31,396 nt of DNA from Isohypsibius dastychi. Its lineage: Eukaryota; Tardigrada; Eutardigrada; Parachela; Isohypsibiidae. The notes below the pieces were generated by a model. That model saw only the letters and a list, made by a program, of their open reading frames with translations. It did not search any database and was not told the DNA's origin. The position numbers and the translations under genes were made by a program. How positions within the stretch are numbered: position 1 is the stretch's first letter; each line of letters begins with the position of its first letter. Positions 1-30,424 of the stretch are shown one piece after another. The DNA is taken from the NCBI GenBank assembly GCA_034696485.1, contig JAQIWT010000152.1, forward strand, positions 1 to 31,396. The letters run 5' to 3'.

Positions 1-2742
1 ATGGCTCTGCGTTGCTTCACCTTCAGCCGCCCCTTACGCACGCCATCCTATGCAGATGACAGCGAGTGATACTTTCGTATCAACCTCACCGATTTCCTAA
101 TAACCGCTCTGTTCAATCAAATGATGCCTAAAAGACAACTGCTAATCGATAATATTCACTCGGATTCAGTTTTATTTTGAAATTGGTTCTCGTACGTCAG
201 GAAGAACGGGAGGCCCCATCATTATTTCCGACCACACTTCCACTTGACCTTCCCTACCATTTGACAAAACTGATTAAAGGGGTCAGTGGCCCGACTTCGA
301 AGCAGCATTTAGCAAATCATCCATCATTACCATCACTCGGCTCCCTCAGTTAATCGGTACATGAATACACGGTGAGCTCAAGGTAGAGGCTCATCTGTGG
401 GTATCTTAGTGATATACTGTAGTACATTAGGTGACACAATTGAGTCGTGTGCTGTGACCTCGAGTAACGGAAATCTTAAAGGTATTCTTCTAGCCCTGAA
501 TGTCGGTTTGCAAAACAAACTTACCGAAGTCGATTGGGAGAGATTTCTTCCTTGCTTCTGGATGATACTCAAGCGACTTTGTTGTGCACGAACAAGACGC
601 TGGACGAAAGAGAGATGGCTGTAGGATGGGAGGTTGTTCTCTTTTCTGTAGTGAAATGGACAAGTGACGGCGACGGCGATGGCGGGGTGAGCGGTGGCAG
701 GTTTTGGCATTCCTGTGGTATTCATGGAGAATATGGTGTGAAAGCACAGTTCAATAGCTGACTTTTGTAAGCGTTGTGTCAGTTGGTAATCTTCCAGTAT
801 GATATCCGAATTGCGGGCGCCGTCAGAGTTATACTTGCTGGAATATGGACACGCGCAATAAGCTCCCATAGCGGTTTTAACCTACAGTCAGATTGCATCT
901 GGTGAGAAGTGGGAAGCCATCAGTTGATTACCAAACAGTCATGCATGTTCCATTCGACACTAATTTTTTGCAAATGCAACAGCTGCATGTCTTATGCAAT
1001 TCCTTTCGCAACTACGACACATGTACCCACTTGTTCACCTGACCTGCCATTCTCATCCCTGTTGACATGAAATTCAGCATTTGTCCATTTTGAGAATGTC
1101 GGCATACATAGCACTGCGCTGTTAATCAATCGCTTTGTGTGAAAAGGTCATGCGAACGAGAAGGGCAACATCTAATTATGTATATCTATGTCATGTACAT
1201 CTGAGGTTTTGACGAAAATTACAGTGAATTTTAATTCAGTCCAGTGCCATTAAAGGCTGCACTGATCGTCAGTTGAACGGCAACAACAACAACAACAAGG
1301 AGCCGGATGTCAAACACGAAACTGATCATGGATACTTGTCTTCTTTTACACCGTGAACAGTGCCTGCCTGTAAGTGAGCATATGCATATGGATCGATCGA
1401 ACTGGCTTGACCGGCATAACTAGCGATTCCTTTGACGTCAAAAGAATGATCGATACTTGAGCTGTCAATATTATGGTGGCCAATTTCAAACCTGATAATT
1501 TTGCTTACCTGATAATTTCCGTATTTTCCAATCAACAGCACCATCAAGCAAGAAACAACACCGTGGTAAGAGATATGGACAGGTACAACGGTGACAAGCG
1601 TGATTTCGCCCAATGGAAAAAAGTTGAAAGTCTCTCGACATCCGCGCACAAAAACGTGAAGGAACAATCCGATTAAATGATTTCGTCGGGAGCGCGGCAC
1701 GGCATGGCGGCAAAGTGGAGCAGACCTTCTTGGCGATTCTGCAGAGATCAATAATTGTGCGGCATGTCGTACACAGGTTTAATGCCTCACGTCACGAAAT
1801 CTAGTTACAGCATGCTACTGTAAACCCGGCGTTTATATCAGCGCAAAATTCAGTATAACACAAAGACTGAGCCAGTTGGTTCGATTTCAAAACAGCTCTC
1901 CATCGAGTTACCCGGGGAGCTCAAAATATAATTCAAAGCGAACCGTGGATAGATTCAAAATAATGGTATTTGTAGTCAGTGAAATATCTTTCTAGTCATG
2001 GTATAGCTTCGGACTCTCTTCGCACGTGTGAAAGGTTGCGGTCCTCAACACGAGGCATTTTTGCAAAATACCTCACTTGTAAAGTCGACCCTCATTTCAG
2101 TGCATAACTGGATTCGATTTGCCTCGGATTTACCGCACCAAATACATATGTTTCTAATTTCCATGCACGAAACTTGAAAAATAAGTTCAGATAAAAGCGG
2201 CAGATAGATGTGGCAAAAAATTACGATCCAAGTCGGAACAACTTTTGCGACAAAGTGGGCAGTTTTATCGGTATTTAAGTGGATGAGATTAGAATACGGT
2301 CTTTTCCTTGATGACGTTGCATTTTCGCTTTAACCACCATACCTGAGGTACATGCGTTCACTGTTCAAAAAATTGTACAGGCGTGATGGCCTTAGTGACT
2401 TGGTTTTGATCGAGGTTCTGAAGGCCGAAAGGTCAACTCTTTATTGACACCGCTTCTCGAATCTCAACTGAACCGCAGATAAAAAAAGAACAGAAAAACA
2501 CGACCGACCTTCTGTCCGTTGGTGACTAGAATCAAAGGTTGCGACCAGTGACACTGGATCAGCAAACATATTAAAACGAGCAACAAGAGGAACACAAGCC
2601 CAACTCAACGGGGCAATACAGGAATGATAAAACAAAAAAGACCACCCAAAATCATTCACCATGGATCTATAAACAAATCCCGTCGCTCGAGCAAATCTTC
2701 CCAAATTATTCTACAAAAACTGAGTTTCAATGTCAGGCACTC
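1..2742. other. Region downstream of PDE7
   Basis: No supported gene. Contains a (CAA)6 run at 1281-1298 and the exon-like pair noted at 1326-1509. An open frame of 163 codons (minus, 378-869) shows no domain. The far left edge (1-70) is GC-richer and open for 22 codons on the plus strand, so an exon of another gene could be cut by the window edge. Confidence 0.5.
1326..1509 (-). other. Exon-like pair of unknown gene (weak)
   Basis: On the minus strand a frame ending …LMVLLIGKYGNYQ meets a strong donor CAG|gtaagc (exon end 1509). The next acceptor (tcacttacag, exon start 1367) continues in the same phase with AGTVHGVKEDKYP and a TGA at 1326-1328. The whole stretch is also open without splicing. 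Protein family not recognised; it may be chance. Confidence 0.15.
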
Positions 2743-2748
2743 TTTATT
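2743..2748 (-). terminator. Poly(A) signal AATAAA of PDE7, overlapping its stop codon
   Basis: AATAAA on the minus strand; the TAA stop (2744-2746) lies inside it, so the predicted 3' untranslated region is only the usual 10-30 bases before cleavage. A second AATAAA at 2440-2445 (minus) could serve longer transcripts. Confidence 0.5.
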
Positions 2749-4372
2749 CAAAATTCTCGCTGTTTGAAGATATTCCGGATACCATGTGAGTCGGAGTTTG
2801 ACATCCTAAAACCGAAATCGGTGAACTATTCGATTGCTCAACTTTCTAACGAAAGACGTACCAGGGGAAGAGTCCTGGGCAGACCGTCTGCCAGAAGATA
2901 AGTCGCGACTCCGGCGCCCTTCGCCACCCACAGAGGATGCTGACAGCGAATGATGTAGTCTGGAAAACACAGACCGATTAGCGCAACCCTAATTTCACAT
3001 ACAAATCAGACAGCCACTATCACTGCATGTAGTCTGGCGACAATTTTGGCAACAGTTCAAACCACGTCCAGGTTCACCTTCTGGCATAACAGATTCAACT
3101 CAATCTGCCATTTCTCCCAGAGAAAAAGGGTGAAGACACGCATTGAGTGAAAAAAGTATCCAAAGTTATCTCAAGACTCCAGTAGTACCATACATACCCT
3201 TTAAGGAAGTCACGATGAGCTGACTCCATGACATTTACTGGCTCACTACCCCTCCTCCTCTTTAGCTGCTCCTTCTTTGGTGGATGGACATCCTCATCCT
3301 CTGTGTCCTCGTGACTGAGCCGTAGTCCGAATGGCGGCGTTATCGGGTCCGATCTTCTCCTTATCTGTAGGCGTTCAGCATTTACTCCACCGGGGATCAA
3401 TGAAAAGAAGGGTGGCATCGAGCCACGCTTCTCTTGAGTATGAGTATGTGGCCGTCTCATGGATGAGAGAGGGGAAATATCCACTTGGTCCTGCTCATCT
3501 TCTTCCTTGATATTCCGCTGAAAGTACTTGGGTCCACGATCGTTCCAGTCAAAGTACAGCGTTGCTTCCCCAGGTGATTCATCTGCATTCTCCTTGTCCT
3601 CCTCACATTCTGACTGAACTAGTGATTGGGTCGGACTAGTTTCTTCCAGAGTCTAGTAATGTTCCATTTAGAGTTAGTGACCAGCAAAGTTACGAGTCGC
3701 ACACCAAACTTACACTACATTCCTCAGGCTCCTCGAGATGCGATTCTCTTCTAGTTCTATCATCTTCACTATCATCCCGAGCAAACACTGGTCCAATATC
3801 ATTCTCCGTTTCCGAGTCGGTTTCTGCTGTGACAGCAGAAGAGATGCGACTAACTTCGGCATCACAAGTTAGCGATGTTATCCGCGACATTCTCGGGGCA
3901 ATATCCTCGGTACTCCACGATGGACCAGGATGCTCCATTGAGCGATGATAAACTGGCTCAGCAGAGAAGCTAACTCGATCGACGAATGGATTACCGGATG
4001 TAGAGAAGCGAACCAGAGTTTCTGAGAAGACCGAATGCCGTCGACTCCGTGGGTCATTGAGATGCTCACGATGCAGACTCGTTCTGAAAACCAATTAGTC
4101 AAGTCACTGACAAAACCAAAAAGGTCAATCTCTTACTTTGCTCGCTTGTCGTGAATCGATAAGGGCAAGCTATGCCTTCTTTTATTACCGCTAGTAGCAG
4201 AAGATGTTGAGAGTGATCGTCGTCCAAATGAATGGAATAGCGGAAGTGTCACTGGGGGCAGCTCAGATGTCCAAGCTTTAACCTCCGACTCCATCTCCGA
4301 TCCCATTCGTGAGACAGCGGGCGACTTGGCGGATGACAGTTTTGAGGCACCGGCTTCTCTGTCGGCGTATTC
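2744..4372 (-). CDS. pde7: PDE7 exons 7-11 (long C-terminal extension)
   Basis: Exons 4137-4372, 3714-4083, 3198-3652, 2862-2959 and 2744-2805 encode about 405 residues rich in Ser, Glu, Asp and Arg, with patches such as [32 protein letters not shown] and RRSRDLSS that resemble phosphorylation sites of basophilic kinases. Splice borders: acceptors tgtttaag, ttggttttcag, attactag, gtgttttccag and cggttttag; donors AAA|gtaaga, AGT|gtaagt, AAAGG|gtatgt and CCTG|gtacgt. The phases chain without a break. No domain is recognised. If intron 9 is retained, the frame instead runs on to a TGA at 3095-3097. Confidence 0.75.
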
Positions 4373-7300
4373 CTTAAACATGTCGTGTCTGAAAAGATGA
4401 GTACACACATGGGACACAGAACACAATATACCTGCGCCAGTTTGGTCCACTTGATCATGTTGATATCGAGATTCCTCATCAAGTCCGTGCTGAGCGTGCT
4501 TGGCAAAAAGGTCTTCCATTCTCGAAAGAGCGGCTCAACCACATACTGAATAAATCCAACTTGAATTCGGGGCAGATTATTGGTCTTGCGATCACAGATG
4601 GCCGTGACGGGGAGTTTGAGCCGGCGTTCACGGTCGCCCTGCTTGAAGAACTCGTATACAACACGCTGTGACCAGATGCGGCTGATGGCCCATGGACGGC
4701 ATGGATTGTTGATATCGGCGCATTTGAGTATGATTTGCAGAATGAAATGTCGATCGGACTGAGTTTGGAGAATTTGCTCAAATGGCTTTTCTCTGTTGAG
4801 CTGCTGAAAGCGCGCAATGAGATCAGGTTGGCGGGTAATGTCCGTGGCAAGAATCATTGTCTTCATCGTCTCTTCAATCTCAACCAACTGCTCCGCCTAC
4901 AAACACATCTGAATCAGTTTCAACTGATGATTTCTTAAGGAAGGTAGAATATACCGGCAAATGGTCAAGCAAGCCTGACTGTCTGAGCAAACAGATGGAT
5001 GTCCTCCAATGGTGATTCTCAAGGACTGACTTATTATGATACAAAGCTGCCAGATAATTGCGAGTTCCAACCAGAAAGGGCTGATTGACACCTGGATGGT
5101 CGACATCATGTCCAGCGGCAGCTAACAATGCCGACATAATCTCCAACTTGGAAAGGCTCTTTCGTATTTGTGGCTGACACATTAAGCAGTGAAGTGCCTG
5201 AGTGACATCAGCAGCGTGGATAGAATTGTGAAAAGGGTTGGTGCTATGATAACTCGACTCCAGGAGACCTATTAACCATCAAACCGATATCAGGCACTGT
5301 GATAATCTTCAAAACAGTACCGTATTACTAACCGAAACATTTCATGAGCTTCAAGTGGTCCAAGTGGAAATGCTGTACAAGGCCATATTCCTCGAAGAGA
5401 TGTACACCCAAATGAAAGAGCGCCCTCCCATTGGTTAAATGGTCCAAGGTGAATGTATTAAAGTTCCAACTACCAACATGCTGAAGAAGGCATGTGGCGG
5501 GACCTTGATACGTCTCATCAACTAACACTCCATTTTCAGGCTTGGTGAATTTGAAGCGTGACCGACGACGCTGATAATTCTTGTGCAGACTGAAGAAACG
5601 TCCAGAGATCACAGCCCGGCCTGCAAAAACACACGACAAAAGTAAATCATACACGTTTTCAAGAAACAATCTTATCAGAATTCGGAAAACAAAATGGAGA
5701 GACCGGCGACTCAGTCTGTTAAAGCGCTGATAACAGCAGTCAAGGCCTTCAGTGGAAGGCATTTTGTGGGTCTGAACTGAGAATACAGATAAGGCAGATT
5801 CCGACAGCTCTCCTCACAAATTAGAAAAAGTCGAAGGAAATGCAAATCGAATAAGGAGCGGAAGCAAATTGCAGTTTGTTAGCTGGCCTCGCTTCACCAA
5901 CCGGCTCCGTGTTAACACATGACTGAACGGGGGGCCCACAGCCGCCAAAAAGATAAGCACCAGTTTTCGATTGCAACTTCTCAAAAAAGATTTTACTGTT
6001 TCCCACAAATGGGATAATGTAAGAAGAATGTGCAATGAAATCATCACCCGGAATGAAACACATTAACACGAACTATCAGTCAATAAGACTCATATTCAGA
6101 TTTTGGCCAAAAGCAAATGTACAAGCTGTATATCCCTCCTCCACTAAGGACACTACGCAACAGTTCATAACTAAATCCAGACAATATCATACTTTTCCCA
6201 AACATTCGAGAAACCAGAGATCCTAAGAGTGACCAGTCCTTGCCCGTAGTTTTCAGTATCGCTAACGTAGATGAAATTCCAGCTATTTGTAACAATGTCC
6301 GTACCTCGGTCCATCACACAGTGAATACGATCTTTCTAAATAACGAGCAATTTGGAACCACAAAAGCAAGTCATGCCAACATTGATAAATGGAAAAACAC
6401 ACTACGCAACAGTTCAACGAACAAGCTCATCTGCATCGCGGGAAAATGGATGCTATCCTCAACCGTAACAGTCTGACAACTTGACAAGTAAGGCGGGCGA
6501 GCGAGACGAGAGGACGGACTCCCGTTTGAGGAACACCATCGCATCGCATTCGCACCACCACGCGCCAAGCCCAACATCGAAAAAAACCAAAACACTTTAC
6601 CATGCAGTCGCGAAATCGATAAAACACTAGCGTTATCGAACTTCTTAGCGACTGAACGCGAAAACGGGAGAGATACTCCAAGATGTGCGAAGTGCAAACA
6701 AAGTTTGACCATTTACCCACTAAGTATGAAACGTAATTGCGGGGAACTAAAGTAAAATTATCTACCAAAACCAGACAACACAAATGCCGCCTCAATCATG
6801 TGGTCCATTTACAATCACGAATTAAAATGACCTCATTTCAATAAAAACACACAAAGAGTCAGTTCTTGAGACCATCCCACTGGTGCCACATCGGGAGCAC
6901 CCGATTTTCGAAATGCCAAGCACAAGCTAGAATCTGGAACTTCACTAAGTCCACCAAGCCTGTCATCAATATGCTAACAGCTGACTACAGTCCGCTTTTG
7001 ATGTACAGTTCATGCAGAGTAGGACACGCAAAAAATCATCCACATCAGCAAAAGAATCATGTCACTCGGTTCTTCTTTAAGCACTTGAAAGGAATCCCTA
7101 ATATTACATCAGAAAAAATAATTTCCGGCAGCGATCATTCCAATCAACATCAGTCATTTCAAGTTCAATCAGTATGGCGAGGAATACGTATTGATTTTAA
7201 GAACAATGTCAAAATATTTTTCAGGATAAGTCAGCACCAGAAATGTCAGTAGGACGGCAAGGGGGTATCAACCGATAAACCTACATGGGGCTAAGAACTA

Positions 7301-10300
7301 AAAATATTTTCGTGGAGCTGGCCACATGTGCTGACTAATGTGGGACTAGCGGTAAAAAAACCGCTCACACTCATTACGGCTCACGGAGCCAAAACGTTAT
7401 CGATTTTAAAATATAACATTATGTTCATGTTATTTCTAGTCATTGGGGTCATATTTCAATATGAGGCCAAGGATCTGGGGCCAAAACGAGGCCATGGTCG
7501 CAGGTAGGTCGCTCCGCGAAATACACCCAAGAAGGCAGCTGCAAACTTCCCAGATACATAAACAGACGAAAGATTAATCCGACGAAGTGCAGCACCTGAT
7601 CAGTTTCTTTCTCAAACATTTGAGAAGAAAGCTTGATTAATTCGTACAAATATGACTTTTTGATGTCATTTCTCGTTACTTATCTCAAGATTAAGATGTA
7701 AACATAAAATTCACATGTGGCAACAAATATTTCAAAAACAGTTTCTGCTGAATAGAAAATAATACGACAGTTGCATAACCCATTGTCCGAAGTGCGCAAA
7801 ATATCCGAAATATACGGTGACGACCTCCGACTGTCGCATAACAAGAGCAGGACTTTGCTAGGTTATATAAACACGACTACTTTACAGACAATCTAGCTCA
7901 AGCAATATGCACACACATGAGTTTCAAATTTCTACGACACCGTAACCCAGTCTTCCTAGCTCCTTCCAAGGCTGTAGATATTTCTACAGCCTTGGTTCCT
8001 TCGCTAGATCCCTCTGCTTATGTCTTGTCACTGTCAGCCACAAATTCATCCCGCATTTTTCAGTGGAGACTGCTACACAAAATAATCCTGGGTTTGAGAA
8101 GGTGCCATAAGTTGCAAGAAAGATACGCGAAAGACACACGCGAAAGATTTGGATAGAAAATGAGACAACCCGCTTTGAAAAAATTGCCTACGAGAATTCC
8201 ATGAAGCAGTTCCTTATACAATTTTCAGTTCACAAAAAAAGCTAGCTGCCCTGAATTTCGTTACTCAAGAATATGTTCGGTTTTTCTCACATTTTGTATG
8301 AAGGTCTACCAAATCGACAAGCGGAAGTAAAAAAGCAAATGCTGGAGAAAGCTGAGATTGTCGCCAACTGATACGCAATATTAGGAACAATGTATAGACT
8401 CAAATTGCGATGGGATCTCTCTTACCTTTATTTTGAACTTCCTCGGAGATGCTGAGTTGTGAGGTTAGCTTCTCTTCAACAAGCGATTCCAGCGCCGAAG
8501 GGAAATTTGGTATATCTTCGTCCACATCTTCCACATCAAGCGAAGAGGATGATGGAATGAACATATCCCCTGAAAAGGCCACAAGATAAACCATCATGCT
8601 TATTATTTCCGAAAACACTCCTTTGACTTGACTCGAAAAAGGTATACGTCCAGCAAAACACGTTTTGCTTCGCACGTGAACCTTATCATAATCTAATCAG
8701 CAAACGGGTCTCATTTTGGCTTTTGCATGCTGTTCGACGCAGACAAGACTTGTGCCGACTTGAAGGTATTTCGCAAGTTTGCAGATCTACAACCGCCTAC
8801 TTTGCAAAGTAAAACGAGCGTCATTTGCTGGCCTACTTGCATTGCGTGAACGTCTGCTGTTAACTCTGCTGACAGACAAGATTATTTACGCCATCGGCAG
8901 TTTCTTTCGGCATCTAAGCTCGCTGACGAATGCATTCTTCACATTTTTAAAACGACACATTTCTTTTTAAAAGGCCCAAAGAAAGTTATCAAAACTGTGC
9001 AACTCCTAGGGTCCGGCCCCTGTCTTCGTCACCGACGTTCGTTCTACAGTACATCTCTGTGAAATAACCCCGCCCAGATGTATCCTACACGACTAACAAG
9101 TGTGCTAGGAAATCTTCCCGAATCCCACCAGTCAGCGATCTGAACATTTTCGCGAGTTATAAGGTCATGATCAGTTGTGGAGCGCTCACATCCTAGTAGG
9201 TTTGGGCTTGCTAAGCCAATCACATGCAAACTGTGAATAACATCGATCAGATACAGGGCAATTCGCAAAGCGTCTTCAGCTTATTTCCATATGCTACTTA
9301 TGATAGAAGTCAGTTACATTTCCCACGAAGTCAAAACATCACCGCATAATACAAATGAAACCACCAGAATCTCAATCTCAGTGATGACCTTTGGCTCTGA
9401 GCACACGCTACAGAACGAGCTTCAGTCACCACGTTCAACAGTTAGTCTAGTATATCAATATCCCTTAACCGAAGTAGTGTCCACAGTCCTCACCTCGTAT
9501 CCGAATTTCGAGTATTCCATCGCAATTCCTCGAGAGGTATGCTGTTGGCCGCGAAATGGCCTGCAAAAAAGAACAGGCTAAGTTAGGTGAAAGCCAACAG
9601 ATTCATTTTGTTCAGAAATCGGGATGAGCGGTGAGTCGCTACACAACTTTTGGATAAAATCGTGGGTACAAGATTGCATGTGGCAAGGGTATGCCACAAG
9701 GTATATTAGAGATATTATAATTTTCTTAATGCCCACGCAATCTTAGCATCAGCACCGAACAAAAAACGACGCGCAACAGGAAGACAGTTGATACTGACAG
9801 GGGAACCGAATCGGTCCAAGGTAGCATATTCAAGTTCATCTAGTAAGATTCAGTTAACCAATCAACATGGCGGCAGCTTCTAGTGCTACACTCTACATCA
9901 CACTTGGATGACATGACATGAGCGAAATCGGTGATCTTACCACGGTGACAGGAGGGACAACTACGAACGCGCTTTCAATCCCTACGAAACCATAAATCCA
10001 TGACAATCGTACTACTGTACGATCCAAGGTAACTGAAGTACATAATAACAACGGAGAATGATACAACTTGCAATGATGTGGATAGCTCATCGTGGGCACC
10101 ATTATCCTACTCTTTTTTTCGCGCATACCTTCATCTAGAAATTTTGGAACATGACATTTTTCCAAAACTGCCATTCAGAAAGGGGTGCCTGCCTCTTACA
10201 AGTGGCGCCACCAACAGAACACTCTAGTAGGAAAGCCATCATGCATCAAACTCGCCGGCACAAGTACACGAAGAACCACAACAAAAAATCCACATTGCTT

Positions 10301-17870: not shown

Positions 17871-19149
17871 TCAATATGAGAGGATGCGCTTTTCGATGGC
17901 TTTCCGGCATATGGGGCATTCTGTGATGCGGTCACCGCACAACTGACACGTGCTATGGCCGCATAGAAATATCATGTTCTTTAACCGATCCATACATACA
18001 GGACACACGATCTGAAAACATTCCGTATTGCTCGTAGTATAACCAAAGAGAATCAACACAGGTGACCTTGTCTTTATAATCTTGCAATTGCTGCTGCATT
18101 TGGTTCATTTTCGAGAAGCTGTCAGAGTGGATAACACTCTGATTGCTGCCAACTTTCTGACTGTTGCCGTTGCTGTTAAAGTTGGATGGTTTGTAATTGT
18201 TCATATTCAAGTTCATCATGGCCGAATTCATGTTGTCGGGCGATAAAGTTGCCGTCGTCGACGTCGCTGGAATCGGCGATGCCGATGCTGTAATATGATG
18301 ATGGGGAGTCATATGGTCGAAGAATTAGATGTTGTATGTATAACTAACCGGAAGTGAGACAACAAGCGGCAAAAGATACAGTTCGCTCGATGGGTACTCG
18401 GCACTGGACGCACTTTTTCATGAGCGTACAGCACTGACTACATGAACACATGTGGCCACATGGCTGGAACAATACGCTTGCTTTCCGCTCTGAACACACC
18501 AAACACTCCTCGATTTTCGATCGAGACTCGACCATCTCCTAAAGAAGAAACTTTATTTTTTCACCAATAGACTAAAAAAGTATAGAACACGTATTTCGTA
18601 ATAACGTCCAGATTCGGGCTGTAGTATGGGACCTTCCCTTGTCCATGTTTTCAACCGAAACATGACTCCGTTTAAACATTATCTTGGTTGGTTTTTCTAG
18701 CTAAATAATCAATTGATAAGGATTCAAACAACTGAATGTCAACCGATCAAGACCAACGAGCAATGTGGCTGTTATTAGAATGTTCATTTCAAGACCTCCG
18801 AAGGTTTATTTCGAATTTTTCGAAGCAGTAATTGAGTGGTAAGTTTAATTCTGGACATTGCTCCAAAGAAAGCGACCAAATCTGCCGCGCGATTCAAAAC
18901 TTAATAACCCTACCAAAGAAAATCCTCCAAACCTATACCTCCCGTTAATACTTTTCATTTCACCTCCCACAAAAATGACTTACCCGACAAATGAGGCACT
19001 TTTTAACACGCGGGGCGCATAATGAACAGGTGACTACATGTCCGCATGGTGAGAATAAAGTGTCACGCATCTGATCCGAACAAACCAGGCAATCTTTGGG
19101 AGTTTCCGAATCTGACCGAGTGTATGAGTTGGAGGACAATCGTTCATCC
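17871..19149 (-). CDS. mib1: MIB exons 16-19: three RING fingers and C-terminus
   Basis: RING1 (exon 16, 18984-19149) reads [18 protein letters not shown] and ends KKCLICR. RING2 (exon 17, 18349-18538) reads [20 protein letters not shown] and ends KKCVQC. RING3 (exon 19, 17871-18011) reads [17 protein letters not shown] and ends [15 protein letters not shown], the family C-terminus; it carries the ligase activity in known MIBs. Exon 18 (18067-18287) encodes a low-complexity linker rich in Ser, Thr, Asn and Met, followed by the coiled-coil segment [14 protein letters not shown]. Its donor (AAG|gtcacc) is weak but is the only one that joins correctly to IVCPVC. Confidence 0.94.
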
Positions 19150-22100
19150 CTAAAAAATCAATCATATAACACACTGCACAAAATGACAATGAGATTCGAT
19201 GAGAAAGAAATCGATTCCTGAATTACTGGACGCATTTGAATGTCTGGGGGAATTTATATTTCTTTTCGTTTTGTAAAAGGAAATCGGTAGCAAAGGAAGA
19301 AAATAACAAGTTTCGAACGGTAGTGGCGTTACGTACCCTTTTTCAGTCTGACATTTACGAAGTGCTTTGCCGAGATTGGGATCAGGACAAAGGTCAAGTG
19401 GTGTTTGATTTTTCTTGTTTTTGAATTGTAGATCGGCACCATGTTGAACGAGAAAGGTGGCCAAAGAAGCGCTCACTTTGTTATCTGACCCTTGCGAGCC
19501 CAAGCCGAGTAGTAGCTGTTAATAAGATCAATGGTCTAATTCTGATTGCAGCAAATGGCTCTTAAAACAACAGTAACTTACAAATGGATTACCACCGCCC
19601 TGAATATCTTGCAGGTCTTGTAGCTGGCGAATCTGGGAAAGAGTATGACTTCTCAACGCTTCATGGAGCGGAGTATCACCGTCTTTATCCGCTATATTCA
19701 CATCACATCCTTCTCGCACCAAAAACTGTAAACAAAACCATGAATAAATCCGGGATAAAAATTGGTAGCTTTCACTGGCTTTCATCCAATCATTATGGTT
19801 TGATGAAATCTGACACCTTTTTTTCAACTCAGGACAACTAATTCGGATTCCACTTTAAATCTACCTTACCCGAACAATCTGGGTATGTTGACGTTCGACG
19901 GCTAAATGGAGAGCAGTCTGCTTATTGACGTTCTGGAGATTCATGTTGGCATGAGCATGCTTGACGAGGAGCTCAACCACTTCCAGGTGATTGTTCAAAC
20001 ATGCCAAATGTAACGCCGTATACCCATCGTCCTTCTGCTCATCAACCAGCCATGGCCGCGCCAATTTCCCCACCAATATTCGCATGGCGCTAAAAACACA
20101 CAAACTTTGTCAGAGAACAAGCGAAAAAATAACTCAAACATTGAGTAACAACACAAACTCAAAAGCTCGGCATTAATCTTCACACCATACGTAGGGTACG
20201 TACACGATGTCAACCTGGAAGGGCACCCAGAGGCACAGAAAAAATAGTGAGCAACATGATGACGAAGAATTAGCACGATATATAGAGTACCGTACATTTG
20301 ACCGAGAAAGAGACCCAACATCTAAAAAACCACGGACGCCAACTGGCAAGTTTATATCTGCGTTCCAAAACCTGTATATAAGAGCTTCGCTATCAAATCA
20401 ATTACGTATTGTAACGAAATTGCCAATTGCTTTAATGGTTTCGGTGATGCGACAATTGAATTTTGTAAAATTTGTCTGAACTTAATCTCATATATCCTTC
20501 CTGTACGCTGTCATAATCGAAATACCAAATTTACCATACTGCATTGTTCTGGACATATTAGGCCATTAGGTGGTTCTGCTTTAGACTTGGAGAACAAGAT
20601 GGAAAAGCTAAGTGTAGCTGTCAGGCTGCTATGGACGTTATAAAGTGATTTGAAAATTGCCGGTGGAAGTTTGTGTTTTCCTTGTATTGTCCCTTTCTTG
20701 GGTTCGCGATCGTGTCTGGGGAGAGGTTATTCTGACCAGATACAATACTACCACTACCAGCCCACCTCTTGCTCCCTTGAGGGCAGTATTTGTACAAAGA
20801 ACAGTCTCACAACAACTCCATCCATTTGATGTAAATTCTGTTCTCAAAACCGAGAAAAAAGAAATACGATTTCAATACACTGCGCTACTTTCCCTTCCGT
20901 TCAAAATTCGACCACCCTACGTAGTGACATTGACGAGTGCATAAACTGTATACCAATAATCCACATTCAACCATACATGCGTGATTCATTGACTTTCAGG
21001 ACTTTGCTTTTGTCCGAGGAACTGGCTCTAGAAATCTGCGCTTATTTACTCATTATTTTACTCGATTTTTCCACTTTCCCAAAAGGTCCTCAAATATATC
21101 ATCGGAGAGATCGATAGCGGAACCGTGAGATAAAAGAGGATATCAGTTTGAGACAGGCCAAGAGAGGAGCAAAGGTCTGATGAAAACAAGTAGTTAATCA
21201 TTTTATGCCATCGATCGGATCGCACTTTCAAATACCGACAGAAAACCCATTTTCGTTCTAGCTCGCCGCTCTGATCACCAAAAACGGGAATTTACCATCA
21301 CGCTTCAACATTTTAAACGGCGTGTATATGTTTTTCTACAACATATTCCTCCAAGACCTTCAAAGTCGGCGCTTCTCACACATTCATATACGTATACCGG
21401 TAAGTGAAAGTGATCCGATAATTTCGAAATATAAAACTCCGAATGTCTGCCGAGTTTGACAATGTCCAGCAGTTGACGGCTATCAATCAACATCATCAGC
21501 CCTGCTCCACCCTAAGCTAATTAGTCCAGTTTATTATTGAAATCCGACTGCGTTGAATCGCTCATGTTAGGAAAAGAATGATGCATTTCACGCCAGCTTT
21601 CCGAGATGAAAACTGGAATCCACATTTAATTTTTCATATTCAAAAACCGAATTATTTTAGCAGTTAGGCGTCATGTATCAAATACTTTCTTCAAGAAAAA
21701 TTGGCTCAATCGAGCCAGAGCTGGCTGGTAACTCTGCATGCTCAGCGAGACCTACCGGTCCGTCCAATACCCAAGTGAACCTTATTTCACCAGTTTATTT
21801 TTAACAACCAAACAAACTTTGTACTTCACGTGAAATGGAGCACATAAAGTACCTTAATATATTAAGTGAAAAGGTGGATAACACGGTTCAACGAACTTCT
21901 TCACATTGGTTGGCAACTGCCATTCTGACCAAAATGTGTGGGAAAGTTAAACAAAAAATCCCTAATTAACGAACAGTGTACGCATCTCACCTCGATATGG
22001 CAGGCCTTTTCCAGAGATCAATGTTATTATCAACATAATCGCAAAATTATCCTATAATATTATCTGTTGTTCTCGAATAGATGACTGACTCGATAGGTTC

Positions 22101-25100
22101 ATCTGCTTGCGGGTTTTGGTTAACCGAAATATGGCATGGTCACGGGAACCAACAATGGCAGCTTTCATGAAAATACGATAGCGATTTGTTGCAGAGTTTC
22201 ATATTTGGATTTATTCTACACTGAACCTTCTTGGCAGTCCAGCTAGCAGGGCTAATGGTAAAATGGAACCTGTAGAACGACTGGAAGGAAAAGGTACTGG
22301 ACTGCCAAGAAGGTTCAGTGTATTACATTTGTTACTCTGATTACCATTTATTATTTCGAGCGTATTTTTCAAAAATAATGATTTCAGTAGCAACCAGCTG
22401 CTCAACTTCAACTGCTCAAGTACCAATGTTTTTGTACAAATCGCAAAAACTCCATCAAACTTAAGAACTAGCTTAGACAATTTTACGGAGATCTTCAGAT
22501 CATCGGACATGGAATCACCAATTGAAGTTCTGATTGAGGACTGGACTGTGGAGATCAACGCAAAATGCGAACGGGTGAATTTCAAAGTGAAATGAAAGAC
22601 CTAAGACATGAATTTTGTTTTCAGAATTCTCTTGTTTGTAACATCAACCGATTACAGAAAACATGCCCTTCATTTCAATCAACTTTATGTTATACAGTTC
22701 AATCATTGGTTTTAAAGCTAACTGACCAAAGCCAAATCTATCGCTCAAAACTGCGATAAACGTACACTACCTTGAATTCATGTAAATGATTAAAATTAGA
22801 AAATAATCGTGGCTACGCTTGCTATCACGGCATTATTCCGTTCATATTTTCAGAATGAAAGAAGAGGCCGAGCGGCATGATGACCGACGATCCGAACCGT
22901 GGTACCGTCACAACGGAATAGCCCAGCCAGAATCCCAAAATAACCTCCCTTATCAATCACATCTAAATCTAGAGCTCCCGTTACAGTGCTCTCCATTCCA
23001 AGCGCCAGCCATGGCATCCGAAACTGATCTTGCACATTCTACTCTCAGACCAGCCTGTTGCGTCTCCCTCCTTCCCTCACTCTCGCTTTTTCTCACGCAC
23101 TCCTCTCCATTCCATCAAACTCCAAATCTGTCAATCTCAACATATGCTAGCCATATTTGGCGTTTGTTTCATCCAACTTGAAAGGATGGATGATGAGTGG
23201 AGAGAAGATGGGAGGGAAGTTGATGATCTGGTCTCATCTCGACTCAATAAAATCCCACCTCATCTTGTCTAGTCCAACTGGCATCTTCATAAAGTGCACC
23301 GGTCAGACGTTGGGGAGGTTTAGTCTACATTTTCATCATCCTCATCTTCTTCTTCTTCTTCTTCTTTACTGTTTCTTCAGCTGCTGTATCATATTTATCC
23401 TCCAGGCATCCATTTACGCGATCTCGCGGCCATTTCAGTTGGATTTAGTACTTGATGGTCTAGATTTGCAGCTCATTCAAAGGTCACCTATCTTGTACAC
23501 CGCTGTTCGCGGGAGACATTAGCCAGAACGAGCTCCGTGCTTCGTTATGATTCCATAGTGCTTAATTAAGTTTTGGCTATGGAATGTAAAGAAGTATGGA
23601 GCAAGTCTGGTTTGCAAAAGCTATGGAGGGATTGGAGTAACTTGGTGAAAAATCAGTCAAATAAAAGCTGTGTATTGTGATGTAGAGAGAGTAAGTTTTA
23701 ACTACTTTTCCAGTTCCTTCGTCTGGTCGTCGCAAAAAATGCAGTCGAAATACCGGGCTTTCACATGAAACACTTTTATGATAAGAGTATTAAAGGAACG
23801 AGAAATAGCTGAACGTTTTGAATGAAACTTTATAAGATCAATCTCTGACCAAAAATTCATCCAGCTAATGAAAACCATGACGTCCAGCCATTGTGGGTAA
23901 AGTAAGAGTCAAGGACTCAAAACGGGCTACCGGGAGACTTAGTTATCGAAAATGAAAATAAATCACAACATTTCTATATTTAGAAGAGTTCATGTACTAG
24001 TATTTGCTACCGTTTTCGGTTTAACTCTCGCAGTCCTCGAATTCTGCTGAAAAGAAGAGGGAGCAACAGGAAGAAGAGCAACTAAACTAGTCATTCGCCC
24101 CCTTAAGTCTCTGTTATTCACATTATGTGAGCCAGAACAGAATCCCATAACTTGGAACTAATATCGATACTACTGTATAAGACTACCTTATTTTAAAACT
24201 ATATCGCGCTGGGCGCTTCGTTTCACAGACAACCACCAATGAGGAATCGCTATCGCTGACCCACGTCCGTGCTGTTTCTTCATCTGACAAAGATAAATAT
24301 AGACGATATGACACTCGGTCAACTCTCTCCGAAATAACTTCCTAGAGAAGGCTAGAAGTGCCAAGCCTCTTTCCGCGAGATTGTTTGTGGGACAAGTATA
24401 TAGAACCAAGAGAAAAAAACAGAGATACTGCCAATGAATGGAATATGCATCAGCCTTTTTTGTCCAAATACCGCTCACTCACAAAACTTTGAAAACAATC
24501 GAAGAATTTTCAGGAGAGATGCTGAATGACATTAGATGCGATCCAAGCGTCGTGTGGACCAGGCTGAATGCCATCTAGTGGCTCAGTGATTCACGGTAGT
24601 TCTCGTCACTTTCAACCAGATCAAGGTCCGCACAGAGCACGAAAAAAATAAACAACCCATCAACTCGCTCTCCATGTCTGCGTACTCAAACTTTGATCAG
24701 TTTCGATGGAATAATGGTAGAAAAGTACGGATAAATATTATGCACAAATATTGCCTGTGAACCCGGCATGTGCTGATTACGTCCTAGTTGTAGTTTCAAT
24801 ACATTAAAGCAAACTATTATACTGTATCATTCAGTACATAACGCTAAAACTGTATCTTGCAACATATTACATTCGGAAATTTTAAGCCAGATTACTTATT
24901 TTATTGATTCACACTTCAATGGTAGCGAATTAAAATGTCCAGGTTGTAGAGATTTTGAAAAAGGTCAGGACGGACCATATACCGGTGAGTTTCCCCGGGA
25001 CGCATGGAATGACTGTGCAGTAATAGAAGAATTTTCACAGAAGTGGTTTTTATCCACATAACCAAAGACTTCAGCACGACCTGCAGAATATCGCGCACGC

Positions 25101-28100
25101 TTTTTCATAGGAAGAAAAAACAAGGAAATTCATTTGGGACGAGGCACGGTCAGGTAATTATGATTATGTTCAGATATGAACACACGGCATCGAAACAAAT
25201 AGAGCCATCTGACAACTGATTTTAATTATACTGTAGAATAAATCAAGAAAAAACTGAAAGAAACAGCCAAAAACAAATCTCCACCAAACTATCAACCCCA
25301 CAGAAGTCTTAAAAAAACGGAGAAGCTGCCCCCCCCCCCCCCACCCATCCCCAAACAAAAACCAAACAGCTGGTTGCCTTCTTTTAAAAACAAGTGATTC
25401 CATACGCAATGCACCTGAGGTGCAGTTCCCGTTTAAAAACCACTGTAGACAAACATATCACGGGATTCCTGAAGCTAAACCAGTTATGTCTTCTTCGTCG
25501 TCTCACATTTCGCACTTTAGTTCTTCACACTTGCAAATTCGATTTAACAAGATTTCCTTTTCAAGAAGGAAAGAGAGAGAGGGATAATATAACCTGAACA
25601 TTGTTACATAACGAAACATCCCATCCCCGTCGGCATCCTCCCCTGGTACCCTGACATGCCGTATAGCGATCAAAAAAAGAACACATGGCCAGACGGCCAC
25701 ATCACCAAGACTCGCAAGACTTGTCGCTATCACTTGCTTGTGTTTCTCCTCTTCCCTTTCTCAAGCTCGATTTAGACGTTGGCATTCGTCTAATCTCGAA
25801 ATTTATTTTGTCGCCAGAGGTTCCTTTTCAGTTTCTCCAACGAAGCGGTATTATTACGTTGTCCATGTCTACATGGTAACTCATCTTGATACCGTGACCT
25901 ACCGCGCCATCTTTACAACTGAGTCCGAAACATCTACCTGCTTCATCAAGAAAGAAACTATTGGAATGGGAGAAGAATCTGAATGGCAATTAGCTACCGA
26001 AGTCTCCAGCAAGTCAACTTCGACTACGAATGCATTATCAATGTATTACCTGGGCCTAGAAATCCGGCGGCTGTTATGCGACCATGAGAACTATCAGCGA
26101 AGTGCGCACCCCCCACCAACCCTAGTCGGTCGTGGCACCCGTAAACGAAACCGGTAACATTATGGAAAACATTGGGCACAAGGCCAGACCAAGGTTCAGT
26201 ATTCTTTATCCCCAACTTTAACGTATCTTGCCCGGCCCCTCTGTCTGCTACAGTATAGCAAAATGAGGAGCGAGAGGAAGCTTACATAATCATTTTTTAC
26301 TCGCTTCCATTCCAAGAGCAGCCAACACTGGGTCGATAAAGTGATACTTATGACGTGAACAGGTTCTCGTCTCTTCGATAAATTGAGAGAGGGAAAAAAG
26401 ACAGACGGGGTAAGGCAAGAGTGAGAAGAGAAGGAAAGGGAACAAGTCCAGAAAATCCTTACATCATCCCATCCTTTTCCTACAACATATTCCACCTTTT
26501 CCTTTCAGACCATCTCACTCTCTGCCAACATATGCATCTGCTGATTAACGGGCATCTTGACTATAGCTGTTTGTAGCCGGGCCAAATTGAACCTATAAAA
26601 CAATTGGTCCCCTTCAACCAGCTGTAGTCAGGCCCAAGACCCAGACATCATGACTATTATGGATTGACCTTGAAGGACATACATCCTTCCTTCCTTCCTC
26701 CTTCCCTTTTATCTGCTCGACCAAGACAACATCTTGACTACAGCGGCCCTGACCGACCAGATCAAATTCATGATCATTCACAAATCTGTGATCCTGTACA
26801 GGAAATGACAGAAAAGGTGAGGTAGGAAACCCGTTATCAAATCTAATAAGCATTTTGATAATTTTCCATAAACGATATGGTGACCTTCACAAAACATTTA
26901 CTTCGAGGAAGACAGTCGAAGAACTTGGCCTTCGAAGAAATTCTCTTCAGAAAAATACCCTGGAGAATATTTAAGCATTCAGTCTGCGAAAAAAAACCCG
27001 AACTCACGTAAAACCGAGTGCTGAGATTATGATTAATATCTGAAAATGTGAGATCGAGAGGGGTTCCCTGACCGAAAATCAACAATGACGCGTGGGAAAT
27101 CTGGAGGATTTTCATCCACACAATTTAAACATAGAAAGGGGTGTAAAACCAGAGAAACATTTCATGCTTCCACTGAGAACACGATGCATCCTGACAAGAA
27201 ACCGAAAGGAATCAAAAACATGTGGGTGCAACTTGGTATTATGGCTTTTCCGATAATTTGTCATCGTCTCAGTGAGACCCAAAAACTAACGCGACCCAAA
27301 CATACGACACTGTGGGAATTTCAAAAAATTCTCCTATCTTCCTATCTTCCGCTAGAGCTTTATCAATCCAACAACATTCGTACTTTAAGACTTACCTGGG
27401 ATTACCGCGAAGAGCGGCATGATGGAGAACGTTGAAGCCGTTGTTGTTGCATAAGGAGACATCAGCATCATGTTCGAGGAGAATGGCCAAAATGTCATCA
27501 CGCTTCTTGCTAACTGCATCATGTAACGGAGTATCACCTTCCGTATCCTAGGAAAGCAACAGAACCGATCGAGATAAAGAAACCAATAACAGAGAACTGC
27601 CAAATAAAACGTTTTGTTTATTCACAACTGATCAAGCAATTTTCGATTTTGTTTTGAAAAAGGTACTTGTAAACTGGGATGACATCCAAGTTGCAGAAGA
27701 GTGCGAACGACAGCGACATGGCCTTTATTGACGGCGATATGCAATGGTGTCTGCTTGCGATTATTACGAGCATTCATGTCAGCGGCTCCCACTTTAACCA
27801 ACAATTCGATAATCAAAGCCTCATCTCCGAATGCACCATGATGTAATGCCCGGTCCCCATCTTTATCCTACGCAACAACTAAATGTTCTGACCAGTGTCA
27901 TAGCAATATAAAAACAACACATCCAACCTCGATTTCCGGGTCGGCCTTCGATCGTAGAAGTGCATGCAGCACTTCTACATGTCCATTTTGAGCAGCGGCC
28001 TGCAATGCAGTGTGTCCAGAAAATATTCCGTTGATCTGCAAAAAATCGAAAACATATCAATGTTCGGATGCAAAAAAATTGGTACATTAAAAGGGAACAG

Positions 28101-30424
28101 TAAGAAAGCGACATTACTGCGATAAACCAGATCAATTCAAAGCTTCGAATTGTGCACAGTTTCAACGTTATATGAACCATCCGAGCTAAACCAGCATTAT
28201 CACCAGAATTCAAAACTCGTCTTTGTTGACCAACCTCAACGTCCGATCGCTTCAGCAGCTCTTCGCAACCCGGCAGATCGCCGGCTGCAGCAATCTTAAA
28301 GAGCTCTTCGTGAGCATCGCCGGTCAGCGGAGATTCATACAAGCGCTTCAACAGAGCTTTCAGTCGATCTAGATCACATCAAATAGTCACCCAGCACAAA
28401 ATACGTCGTGGTGAAAAATAAAACCTTGATTTCCAGTCATTCGAGTGACTAGCAATGGATTGTACGTCCAGGACGAGCCACAAACTTCAATCTTCAGATC
28501 ACCATCATTATACACCTGCAACACTCGACCCGGCTTCCCCAGCGACTAGAATACAAAGATGAAAACCAGCACAAACTAAATAAAAGTAACTACAACACGA
28601 GATATTGCAACCTACCGGAAGCATAGCATCAGCCCACTCGCCATGCCCACGTTGTAGAATCTTGACACGATCAACATCACCACATATCTCCACTACATCA
28701 CCGACTTGAAAACTGGAAAGCCCAAGGACTGTATCACCATGGTGTGAAGACATCCGGTTAGTTGGAAGAACAGCTTGAGGAGAAATCTTGGTGAGAACTG
28801 CTGGATTAAAAGTCCATCTAGAAACATATTCTATCTTAATCAATCACGAAATTTCATATAATAAATAAATTTAATGAAATAACTCTTGATGAGGAAAATT
28901 AGTCGACTCATCAACGAAATCTTTTTAATCTTTTTAAAAGCATTAGTTTGGTTTTTTGATTTTTGTAATTGAATTGAATGGGTAAATAACCTGTTTCCGC
29001 TTGGGTAGGAGACGACAATATCGTGATCCTCATCAATTCCAACTACCGTCCCTGTTGTTCCAAGACACTAAAATCAAAAACAATCTTGAAAATACAAGAG
29101 AACAATTAGTTCCAAAAAAAGAAGGATGATTCGGGCATGAAGCGAGATTATGGTCTAACTTAATCGTAAAGGATCCTTTCATATTCACCTCGAACATGCC
29201 TTCCGTCCAGCCGCCATGTCCATGTTGCAATGATTGCAAGATTTCAAGCTCGAGGTCGACATTAACTTGATCATTGACTGTAAAGGCGTGTATGCCCAAG
29301 CGTCCAGCGATATGTTCGCCCAAAGCAGGAAGATGATCTCTATAATAGCTTGGCCCTTTCCCTTCCTGGATGCATTTGATATCCGACATGCCTTCGAATC
29401 CAATACTATGAAATAAAATAATAGACGTGTCAACCAAATCCAGACGGAGAGATGTACCAACACACCGATAGAGATTCTTTCCGCCATGCTCCCATAAAAC
29501 ATAACCGGCACTTCTCGGACTGCCAGATGACCAATCCTGAAGCTCCGTTAATTTGCCACGTTTTCCATTTCCACCATCCTGATCTTCCCACTGCCAGTCA
29601 ACACCTTATGGACAATTTTTGCTTCTAAACCCCGTTAAATGGTTAAAATAAATGCACCTCACCCCGAACAATACGTGCACCAGGAAAGAGTCCTTTGGCT
29701 TTTTTCTTTTTGCTTTTAAATCTCGGTTCCATCAACACCCGTTCCGCGCTGGGAAAAACAGTGCGATGAAAGCGATGGCGAGGATTATGCTTGTCACCAT
29801 GATAGCAACTCGAACACAAGTCATAGTTGGGACATTCCGCACACTTCCACCTCAAGCCACATATTGGCGTTTGCCGACAAGAGTCACACATTGAGCCCTC
29901 ATGTTTCACACCTGCAAATGCAAGAAAGATGAACAGTGGCTAAAAGAAAATATTCCAGAGATCAAATTTCTACCTGTCGGACTGGTGTCAAATAGTCTGA
30001 GATCATAGAGGCCAGCGCAACGATAATTTGCTGCCGTTCCATTATCCCAAACAACAACAACTTCTTCAATCGACTCAAAATTACGAACAGTTCCAACATG
30101 ACCATCTCCCCCATCCTGATCTCCCCATTTCCAATCAGGGCCACGCACCTACAATAAACCAGCCACAATATAACGCTTCTAAATCGTTGCTAATCGTTGA
30201 ATGCTGGAAACCACACTAAAAGCGATGTTCTGCAACATGGGCTCGCTTCTGTTTCACAACAATTGCCAACACAATATTCACCAACAACATAACCGACACA
30301 GAAAATATCTCACCACTCTCGCTCCGATTCCGTCATGATGATGCAAAGCTGGACGCTGGTGAGTCGTAGATGAAGCCCGAGGAAGAGCAGCATTAGTAAT
30401 TGTGCATGCATCCATGATTGGCAT
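17871..30424 (-). CDS. mib1: Mind bomb E3 ubiquitin ligase (MIB1 type), 19 exons, complete
   Basis: RING-type E3 ligase that ubiquitinates Notch ligands (Delta/Jagged) in the signal-sending cell and so triggers their endocytosis. Exons in transcript order: 30314-30424, 29974-30148, 29663-29911, 29466-29604, 29189-29405, 28991-29067, 28616-28817, 28425-28545, 28235-28368, 27928-28035, 27667-27867, 27396-27547, 19870-20089, 19582-19725, 19337-19515, 18984-19149, 18349-18538, 18067-18287, 17871-18011. Every junction keeps phase, giving 3147 bases (1048 residues plus TGA), close to the 1006 of human MIB1. Domain order is the full MIB1 order: MIB/HERC2, ZZ, MIB/HERC2, MIB repeats, ankyrins, three RINGs; MIB2 lacks the third RING. 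Start chosen at the first ATG of the exon encoding MPIMDAC; a second ATG lies three codons on. The first ~30 residues are not conserved. Intron 12 (20090-27395) holds miR-1 and miR-133 on the other strand. No AATAAA was seen shortly downstream of the stop. Confidence 0.95.
19337..28368 (-). CDS. mib1: MIB exons 9-15: ankyrin-repeat region, split by the 7.3-kb intron
   Basis: Exons 28235-28368, 27928-28035, 27667-27867, 27396-27547, 19870-20089, 19582-19725 and 19337-19515. Repeated ankyrin signatures are visible: [131 protein letters not shown] and [14 protein letters not shown]. Exon 12 ends RGNP plus two bases and exon 13 resumes (S)[13 protein letters not shown], so intron 12 (27395 down to 20090) falls at RGNP/SAMR. 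Exons 9 and 10 end in weak donors (GAG|gttggt, GAG|gttgga), chosen because only they keep frame and conserved sequence. Confidence 0.92.
22217..22322. mobile_element. 106-bp perfect-inverted-repeat element (MITE-like)
   Basis: The 25 bases from 22217 (TACACTGAACC…) recur as an exact reverse complement at 22298-22322 (…GGTTCAGTGTA), around a 56-base centre without an open frame. Reading the outer TA on each side as a target duplication leaves arms starting CACTGAACC, a layout of Tc1/mariner-type miniature elements. The element lies in the microRNA-bearing intron, 1.2 kb upstream of miR-1. A long hairpin RNA gene is an alternative. Confidence 0.6.
23141..23146 (+). promoter_or_regulatory. CATATG E-box next to the CArG box
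   Basis: CATATG fits the CANNTG E-box and the form favoured by Twist. It lies five bases before the CArG box. A six-base motif is common by chance; its placement beside the CArG box and upstream of miR-1 is what makes it worth listing. Confidence 0.35.
23151..23160 (+). promoter_or_regulatory. CArG box (SRF site) upstream of miR-1
   Basis: CCATATTTGG is a perfect CC(A/T)6GG serum response factor site, about 370 bases upstream of the miR-1 hairpin. SRF control of miR-1 genes is established in vertebrate muscle; function here is inferred. Confidence 0.5.
23344..23367. repeat. CTT microsatellite
   Basis: About seven CTT/TTC units inside a pyrimidine-rich stretch 160 bases upstream of the miR-1 hairpin. 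Confidence 0.8.
23532..23602 (+). ncRNA. mir-1: miR-1 precursor hairpin
   Basis: The 3' arm at 23580-23601 matches all 22 bases of mature miR-1 as known from Drosophila (seed GGAATGT, tail AAGTATGGAG). The 5' arm (23532-23558) pairs with it: GCTCC with GGAGC at the base and TTCCATAG with CTATGGAA at the top, with a few internal mismatches and a ~18-base loop containing TTAATTAA. CCAGA (23523-23527) and TCTGG (23606-23610) extend the lower stem as expected of a Drosha substrate. miR-1 is the conserved muscle microRNA of bilaterians. It lies on the strand opposite to MIB, so it must come from its own transcript rather than from the MIB intron. Confidence 0.97.
23580..23601 (+). ncRNA. mir-1: mature miR-1 (3p arm)
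   Basis: This is the 22-base guide, with seed GGAATGT at guide positions 2-8. The final bases GGAG rather than GTAG match the arthropod form as I remember it. The position on the 3' arm is the same as in known miR-1 precursors. Confidence 0.95.
23974..23983 (+). promoter_or_regulatory. MEF2 consensus between miR-1 and miR-133
   Basis: CTATATTTAG is a perfect YTA(A/T)4TAR site. A MEF2-dependent enhancer between mir-1 and mir-133 is known in mouse, so both the motif and its position are meaningful, though function is not shown here. Another perfect match, TTATTTTTAA, lies far upstream at 21795-21804. Confidence 0.45.
25329..25342. repeat. Poly(C) tract, 14 C
   Basis: Homopolymer run in MIB intron 12. 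Similar runs are at 17093-17104 (12 C) and 30748-30757 (10 C), all C on the plus strand. Confidence 0.9.
26556..26632 (+). ncRNA. mir-133: miR-133 precursor hairpin
   Basis: The 3' arm at 26604-26625 matches mature miR-133 (TTGGTCCCC, then TTCAACCAGCTGT). The 5' arm CTTGACTATAGCTG (26556-26569) pairs with CAGCTGTAGTCAGG (26619-26632), and GGGCCAAATTG pairs with CAATTGGTCCC across a short loop. miR-133 is a second conserved muscle microRNA. It lies about 3 kb downstream of miR-1 on the same strand, so one primary transcript could carry both. Confidence 0.97.
26604..26625 (+). ncRNA. mir-133: mature miR-133 (3p arm)
   Basis: This is the 22-base guide, seed TGGTCCC, on the 3' arm as in known miR-133 genes. 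The exact 5' end may start at the T of 26604 or one base later; isoforms differing here are known in other animals. Confidence 0.94.
26685..26698. repeat. CCTT microsatellite
   Basis: CCTTCCTTCCTTCC, followed by more pyrimidines, 53 bases downstream of the miR-133 hairpin. Confidence 0.75.
28425..29604 (-). CDS. mib1: MIB exons 4-8: second MIB/HERC2 domain and MIB repeats
   Basis: Exons 29466-29604, 29189-29405, 28991-29067, 28616-28817 and 28425-28545. Exon 4 reads [17 protein letters not shown] and ends the second MIB/HERC2 domain with [13 protein letters not shown]. Exons 5-8 carry the paired MIB repeats, recognised by [51 protein letters not shown] and [10 protein letters not shown]. Together with the MIB/HERC2 domains these form the substrate-recognition half of the protein. 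Introns are 60, 121, 173 and 70 bases. All phases match. Confidence 0.93.
29663..29911 (-). CDS. mib1: MIB exon 3: ZZ zinc finger
   Basis: Begins [12 protein letters not shown]. Cys pairs in CDSC, CAEC, CSSC plus the His residues of [13 protein letters not shown] form a ZZ-type zinc finger (about residues 104-145). The exon ends GARIVRG, the start of the second MIB/HERC2 domain. Phase 1 at both ends; acceptor catttgcag. A Lys-rich stretch (KSKKKKAK) joins the two domains. Confidence 0.93.
29974..30424 (-). CDS. mib1: MIB exons 1-2: N-terminus and first MIB/HERC2 domain
   Basis: Exon 1 (30314-30424) gives 37 residues: a variable His/Ala/Thr-rich start, then GIGARV. Exon 2 (29974-30148) continues with [14 protein letters not shown] and [15 protein letters not shown], the signature of the MIB/HERC2 fold, which in mind bomb binds the Notch ligand tail. 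Donor CGAGAGTG|gtgaga and acceptor ttattgtag; intron 165 bases; exon 2 ends in phase 1. Confidence 0.93.

Follow-up and report, generated by a model that had tools for sequence, protein, structure and literature searches.

The mir-1/mir-133 microRNA pair lies antisense in intron 12 of MIB1 in the tardigrade Isohypsibius dastychi

Why would two muscle microRNAs lie inside an intron of a ubiquitin ligase gene, on the opposite strand, and how old is such an arrangement? The question is raised by a stretch of 31,396 nucleotides from the tardigrade Isohypsibius dastychi (contig JAQIWT010000152.1 of assembly GCA_034696485.1), which we call the window. It carries the gene mind bomb 1 (MIB1) and, within intron 12 of that gene, the hairpins of mir-1 and mir-133. 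We argue that this is very probably the ancestral mir-1/mir-133 muscle cluster at its old address in MIB1, made from an antisense primary transcript of its own. The nesting itself has been in print since 2008. What is new is the tardigrade record and a test of the intron site. The record adds the tardigrade branch to a very old nesting of microRNAs in a host gene, one already described in insects, echinoderms and vertebrates.

The microRNA pair and its host gene

It is worth considering the microRNAs before their host. Each mature sequence is identical to its mosquito counterpart at 22 of 22 bases. The mosquito sequences are printed in PMC2834634; mosquito miR-133 is "predicted" in one of its two tables and has reads in the other. 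The chance expectation for an exact 22-mer on both strands of 31.4 kb is about 4e-9. Both sequences lie in predicted hairpins, and for neither of these plus-strand hairpins did any of 200 shuffles fold as well (Table 1). The mir-1 precursor lies above the gathering score of its Rfam family (56.2 against 45.6 bits, E-value 2.2e-9). The mature starts are 3,024 bp apart, with mir-1 first and both on the plus strand.

We find one copy of the pair in the 30.4 Mb assembly. The mature patterns (19 bases for miR-1, 21 for miR-133) occur once each. The Rfam models match only this locus, as scored on 66 of 2,814 first-look candidates for mir-1 and 59 of 5,160 for mir-133. A miR-1 pattern ending in GTATGTA has no match in the assembly; the ending here is GGAG. 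The two mature patterns gave 0 matches to viral contigs.

The strand restricts how the pair can be made. Since MIB1 is on the minus strand and the plus strand alone carries the conserved mature letters, MIB1 pre-mRNA cannot yield them. We reject that origin for miR-1 and miR-133 because it is on the wrong strand. Judged by strand, the mature sequences would have to come from a primary transcript that runs antisense to MIB1 and starts independently of it. Most likely a single primary transcript would begin before mir-1, between 20.1 and 23.5 kb in intron 12, and would read the plus strand through both hairpins. Drosha and Dicer would then cut it to miR-1-3p and miR-133-3p in muscle. In this scenario the pair would be driven by its own promoter and not by processing of MIB1 pre-mRNA. 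The human cluster has a host-independent start site in the table of a review (PMC7369991).

The MIB1 gene model is complete. Read frame by frame on the minus strand it gives 1048 residues and a stop, with GT-AG at all introns. Pfam finds MIB_HERC2, ZZ, SH3_15, ankyrin and RING domains in the one protein, and matches to the solved MIB1 chains 4xi6 and 8v0e cover residues 31-426 and 430-806. Both hairpins are antisense to this gene within host intron 12. That intron is 7,306 bp long, in phase 2, and it interrupts a Ser codon (AG/C) in GNP-S-AMR. The remaining 17 introns range from 55 to 445 bp (median 70). Of all intron bases in MIB1, 78% lie in the host intron, whose length is roughly 100-fold that median. 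The original prediction had read all of this from the letters: mature sequences matching base for base, proper hairpins about 3 kb apart on the plus strand, nesting in intron 12 of a minus-strand MIB gene, and other introns of 55-445 bases. The scores, coordinates and gene model agree with it on every one of these points. The span it gave, 23523-26632, takes in the two hairpins, and the host intron extends beyond it on both sides.

The relationships of the MIB1 protein are those expected of the source. Among the matches listed, the best are from Paramacrobiotus metropolitanus, a eutardigrade (72%), and from another tardigrade, Ramazzottius varieornatus (68%). Named arthropod MIB1 proteins in the same list reach at most 66%, and the protein P0022 reaches 68% over 86% of the query. 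A tree was built from 13 proteins, 12 of them hand-picked from the 120 matches listed. It joins the window protein to the two tardigrades with support of 100/100; the grouping with Paramacrobiotus is less firm, at 85/74. One MIB1 locus was found in the 30.4 Mb assembly, and the other matches are partial ankyrin, RING or SH3-like stretches.

Two minor observations concern the gene. Outside the MIB1 locus, contig C1479 has, at 586-7384 on its plus strand, three stretches that weakly match (31-38%) the region of MIB1 with the Mib SH3 repeats. These belong perhaps to a MIB2-like gene or to another gene with that domain. Within MIB1, intron 3 (29605-29662, 58 bp) has the acceptor CATAAG, an uncommon AAG 3' splice site.

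Table 1. Positions of the microRNA pair, its host gene and the candidate control stretch in the window
Feature	Positions	Strand	Basis
MIB1 (mind bomb 1) E3 ubiquitin ligase gene, 19 coding exons	17871..30424	-	gene model, Pfam, solved chains
MIB1 exon 12, donor side of host intron	27396..27547	-	gene model
MIB1 host intron 12, phase 2, GTAAGT...TTTTAG	20090..27395	-	gene model; site common to other animals, by predicted reading frames
MIB1 exon 13, acceptor side of host intron	19870..20089	-	gene model
mir-1 precursor hairpin	23526..23608	+	Rfam RF00103, 56.2 bits; folding z -8.53
mature miR-1-3p, TGGAATGTAAAGAAGTATGGAG	23580..23601	+	22/22 identical to mosquito miR-1; 21/22 paired in predicted hairpin
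mir-133 precursor hairpin	26558..26630	+	Rfam RF00446, 50.0 bits; folding z -5.84
mature miR-133-3p, TTGGTCCCCTTCAACCAGCTGT	26604..26625	+	22/22 identical to mosquito miR-133; 19/22 paired in predicted hairpin
candidate muscle control stretch upstream of mir-1	22790..23160	+	consensus matches, Markov shuffles
MEF2-type site (candidate)	22790-22799		consensus match
CArG (SRF-type) site (candidate)	23151-23160		consensus match

The age of the address

Is the host intron the same intron that holds the pair in other animals? Reading frames predicted on the genomic contigs of other animals offer a cheap route to testing intron homology, since such frames cross the end of exon 12 and continue into the intron. 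If the intron follows the AG of the Ser codon and begins with GTAAGT, the expected read-through is GNP, then R, then a stop. A profile of exon 12 ending at GNP was therefore searched among proteins of about exon size. It gave 160 hits, and 120 of these were fetched to look for the pattern. The scoring was loose, accepting GN-P-R plus variants such as GNLR, GNAR and GHPR.

GN(P)R or a close variant is found at the site in 109 of the 120 fetched frames, some of which may be near-duplicates of one lineage. The frame then ends in 73 of the 109 and continues with unrelated residues in the other 36. The 11 frames that lack the pattern comprise 5 that continue into S/G-A-M/V, 5 that end otherwise and 1 that was unscored. 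Ants, lice, a weevil, a mayfly, a butterfly and a kissing bug are among the named animals with the pattern. One frame, P0169, is 92% like the MIB1 of the window and is probably from another tardigrade. The mammalian side is represented by 11 frames identical to squirrel MIB1 over 50 residues. All 11 have R in place of S at the site, and 10 of them then stop. The read-through pattern in these 109 frames, including every squirrel-identical one, shows that the site and phase of the host intron are common to this animal, to mammalian-type MIB1 and to many arthropod MIB1 genes. This test concerns the site of the intron, not its microRNA content.

Four MIB1 frames (P0217, P0226, P0228 and P0230) look different. 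They pass directly from SLQ to exon 12 and exit it at ALRG, two residues early. This suggests that some lineage has lost intron 11 and had the end of exon 12 shifted or replaced.

The microRNA content of the intron is known from published cases. According to the 2008 silkworm paper (PMC2500172), insects and vertebrates alike carry the pair within MIB1 intron 12 in antisense orientation; its honey bee and red flour beetle data are marked as unpublished. Those two insects have the same host, strand and intron as the locus described here. The mosquito shares the mature sequences already mentioned. The vertebrate miR-1-2/miR-133a-1 cluster (MIR133A1HG) likewise has both microRNAs antisense to MIB1, in human in the twelfth intron (PMC13276959), and the squirrel-identical frames put a mammalian-type MIB1 intron at the identical site and phase. 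In fish Mib1 is given as host (PMC4177693). In echinoderms miR-1 lies with miR-133 in a Mib1 intron (PMC11076791, 2024), as here, with the strand left unspecified in that account.

There are also differences. The human review lists two further miR-1 or miR-133 clusters (PMC7369991), whereas one copy was found here. In the silkworm assembly the pair is between MIB1 and a neighbour, outside the intron (PMC2500172); here it is inside the intron and flanked by intact exons. The sea urchin Mib1 exons that flank the pair are about 142 kb apart (PMC11076791), as opposed to 7.3 kb here.

The antisense nesting in vertebrate MIB1 intron 12, which the original prediction had named, is in print (PMC2500172, PMC13276959). 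Its equation of the host intron with the vertebrate one holds at the level of codon and phase in all 11 squirrel-identical frames, and a comparison of MIB intron positions finds 109 of the 120 fetched frames leaving MIB1 exactly at this site. The great age it gave to the linkage is in line with the insect, vertebrate, echinoderm, fish and human cases. No tardigrade report of the nesting was found in the open-access literature searched, which did not cover a 2011 paper on tardigrade microRNAs.

Why the nesting persists, and rival readings

An old address still needs an explanation. We lean, by a little, towards inertia. When a gene sits within an intron of an important host, relocating it without damage to that host is difficult, and it will remain in place until some rare event releases it. 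Persistence of this kind calls for no regulatory link with MIB1. Deletion of the mouse cluster leaves mib1 expression and splicing unchanged (PMC3777988), and expression of the human cluster is not correlated with that of MIB1 in the review (PMC7369991). The linkage can also change, as the silkworm pair beside MIB1 demonstrates (PMC2500172). Mosquito miR-1 and miR-133 are on different contigs in both tables, but these are draft contigs and the separation is unproven (PMC2834634). Two points speak against inertia. With the other introns at 55-445 bp, a host intron of 7.3 kb suggests selection on what it contains, though such selection could act on the microRNA unit alone. In addition, MIB1 protein is reported to be stabilised by an antisense RNA from the human locus (PMC13276959).

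The other scenario is that the cluster and MIB1 are coupled, through shared enhancers, through antisense interference or through an antisense RNA acting on MIB1. The original prediction took this view when it described the linkage as kept by shared regulation. There are several points in its favor. The address is deeply conserved across the published cases and the intron-site test, and the host intron is out of all proportion to the other introns of MIB1. A Notch link was suggested in 2008 (PMC2500172). In lung cancer cells, the antisense RNA from the human locus reportedly binds MIB1 protein as well as stabilising it (PMC13276959). The authors of the mouse double knockout think that an earlier deletion, of miR-1-2 only, may have affected neighbouring genes (PMC3777988). 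However, the unchanged mib1 of the mouse deletion, the lack of correlation in human and the departure of the silkworm pair from the intron all count against coupling just as they favor inertia. The published evidence for maintenance by shared regulation is mixed and mostly against, and we consider coupling unlikely. Inertia, combined with selection that acts on the microRNA unit, is the more economical account of the facts. That one intron is long while the rest are tiny is consistent with selection on the content of the unit.

Two results weigh against our reading of the locus as a plus-strand mir-1/mir-133 cluster. The first is that the mir-133 precursor is under the curated cut-off of Rfam RF00446 (50.0 against 55.5 bits), so Rfam membership by cut-off is not claimed. 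The match covers the full model, with an E-value of 1.7e-9 over 5.3 kb. We use the name miR-133 on the strength of its mature sequence, fold and location. The second is that the hairpins also fold on the minus strand, with z of -6.97 for mir-1 and -2.52 for mir-133 and with 0 and 2 of 200 shuffles folding as well. One can therefore imagine sense intronic microRNAs, the reverse complements of miR-1 and miR-133, cut from MIB1 pre-mRNA. But the complement of any good hairpin folds too. The minus-strand hairpins score lower than the plus-strand ones in both cases, their 39.0 and 34.8 bits in Rfam are under the cut-offs, and the conserved mature letters are confined to the plus strand. We find this alternative highly improbable. 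Output from both strands of both hairpins is possible but unsupported. The antisense cluster with its own transcript is still the reading that we prefer.

That the contig is a chimera or contaminant and the nesting an artefact of a draft assembly of 1,648 contigs is hardly credible, since the exons on either side of the host intron join in frame into a full-length protein, that protein groups with tardigrades, and the arrangement equals the one published for other animals.

The rest of the intron and the neighbouring gene

If the pair has its own promoter, control sites may be sought upstream of mir-1. All three MEF2-type sites of the window and one of its two CArG sites fall in the host intron, and the 800 bp upstream of mir-1 hold one of each. 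Of 5,000 Markov shuffles of that stretch, 4.0% contain a CArG site, 4.1% a MEF2 site and 0.1% both, figures to be read with the fact that the 800-bp span and the motifs compared were picked after the sites were seen. Five other motif classes show no clear excess. E-box, GATA and Twist-type sites are at chance level in the intron. Because of this post hoc choice and the lack of excess in the other classes, we treat the candidate stretch as a lead only. The promoter of the mouse cluster has an SRF site (PMC3777988).

Each hairpin has CAACATATGC upstream of it (23138-23147 and 26526-26535), a Twist-type E-box with the same flanking letters both times. CATATG is at chance level in the intron.

A bolder idea is that the 7.3 kb intron is the whole control-and-transcription unit of the muscle microRNAs, with its SRF- and MEF2-type sites, and that it has resisted the shrinkage of the other introns of the gene. 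It may then show the minimal ancestral control region of mir-1/mir-133. We put this forward tentatively and hold it to be doubtful. At the very least, the intron is a compact place to seek the ancestral muscle-microRNA control region, because all the other introns of the gene are tiny.

Little else was found in the intron. The 15-base word CATCTTGACTAYAGC, which forms the stem base of mir-133 at 26553-26567, recurs with one change at 26730-26744, 177 bp downstream. We rejected a second copy of mir-133 there, as the repeat has no hairpin (z -1.73 over 91 bases and -2.01 over 131 bases). It is either the remnant of a partial duplication or chance. An open frame of 181 codons at 25612-26157 on the plus strand has no Pfam match, and coding use was rejected for it; six other open frames have no Pfam match either. 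Tandem Repeats Finder at its default score reports nothing in 19.8-27.6 kb, and ARAGORN finds no tRNA in the window.

Downstream of MIB1 and on the same strand, the window holds exons of a 3',5'-cyclic nucleotide phosphodiesterase (4249-5278, minus strand). Two of its frames match PDEase_I in Pfam, at positions 98-231 and 1-95 of 238. The enzyme is presumably PDE7-like.

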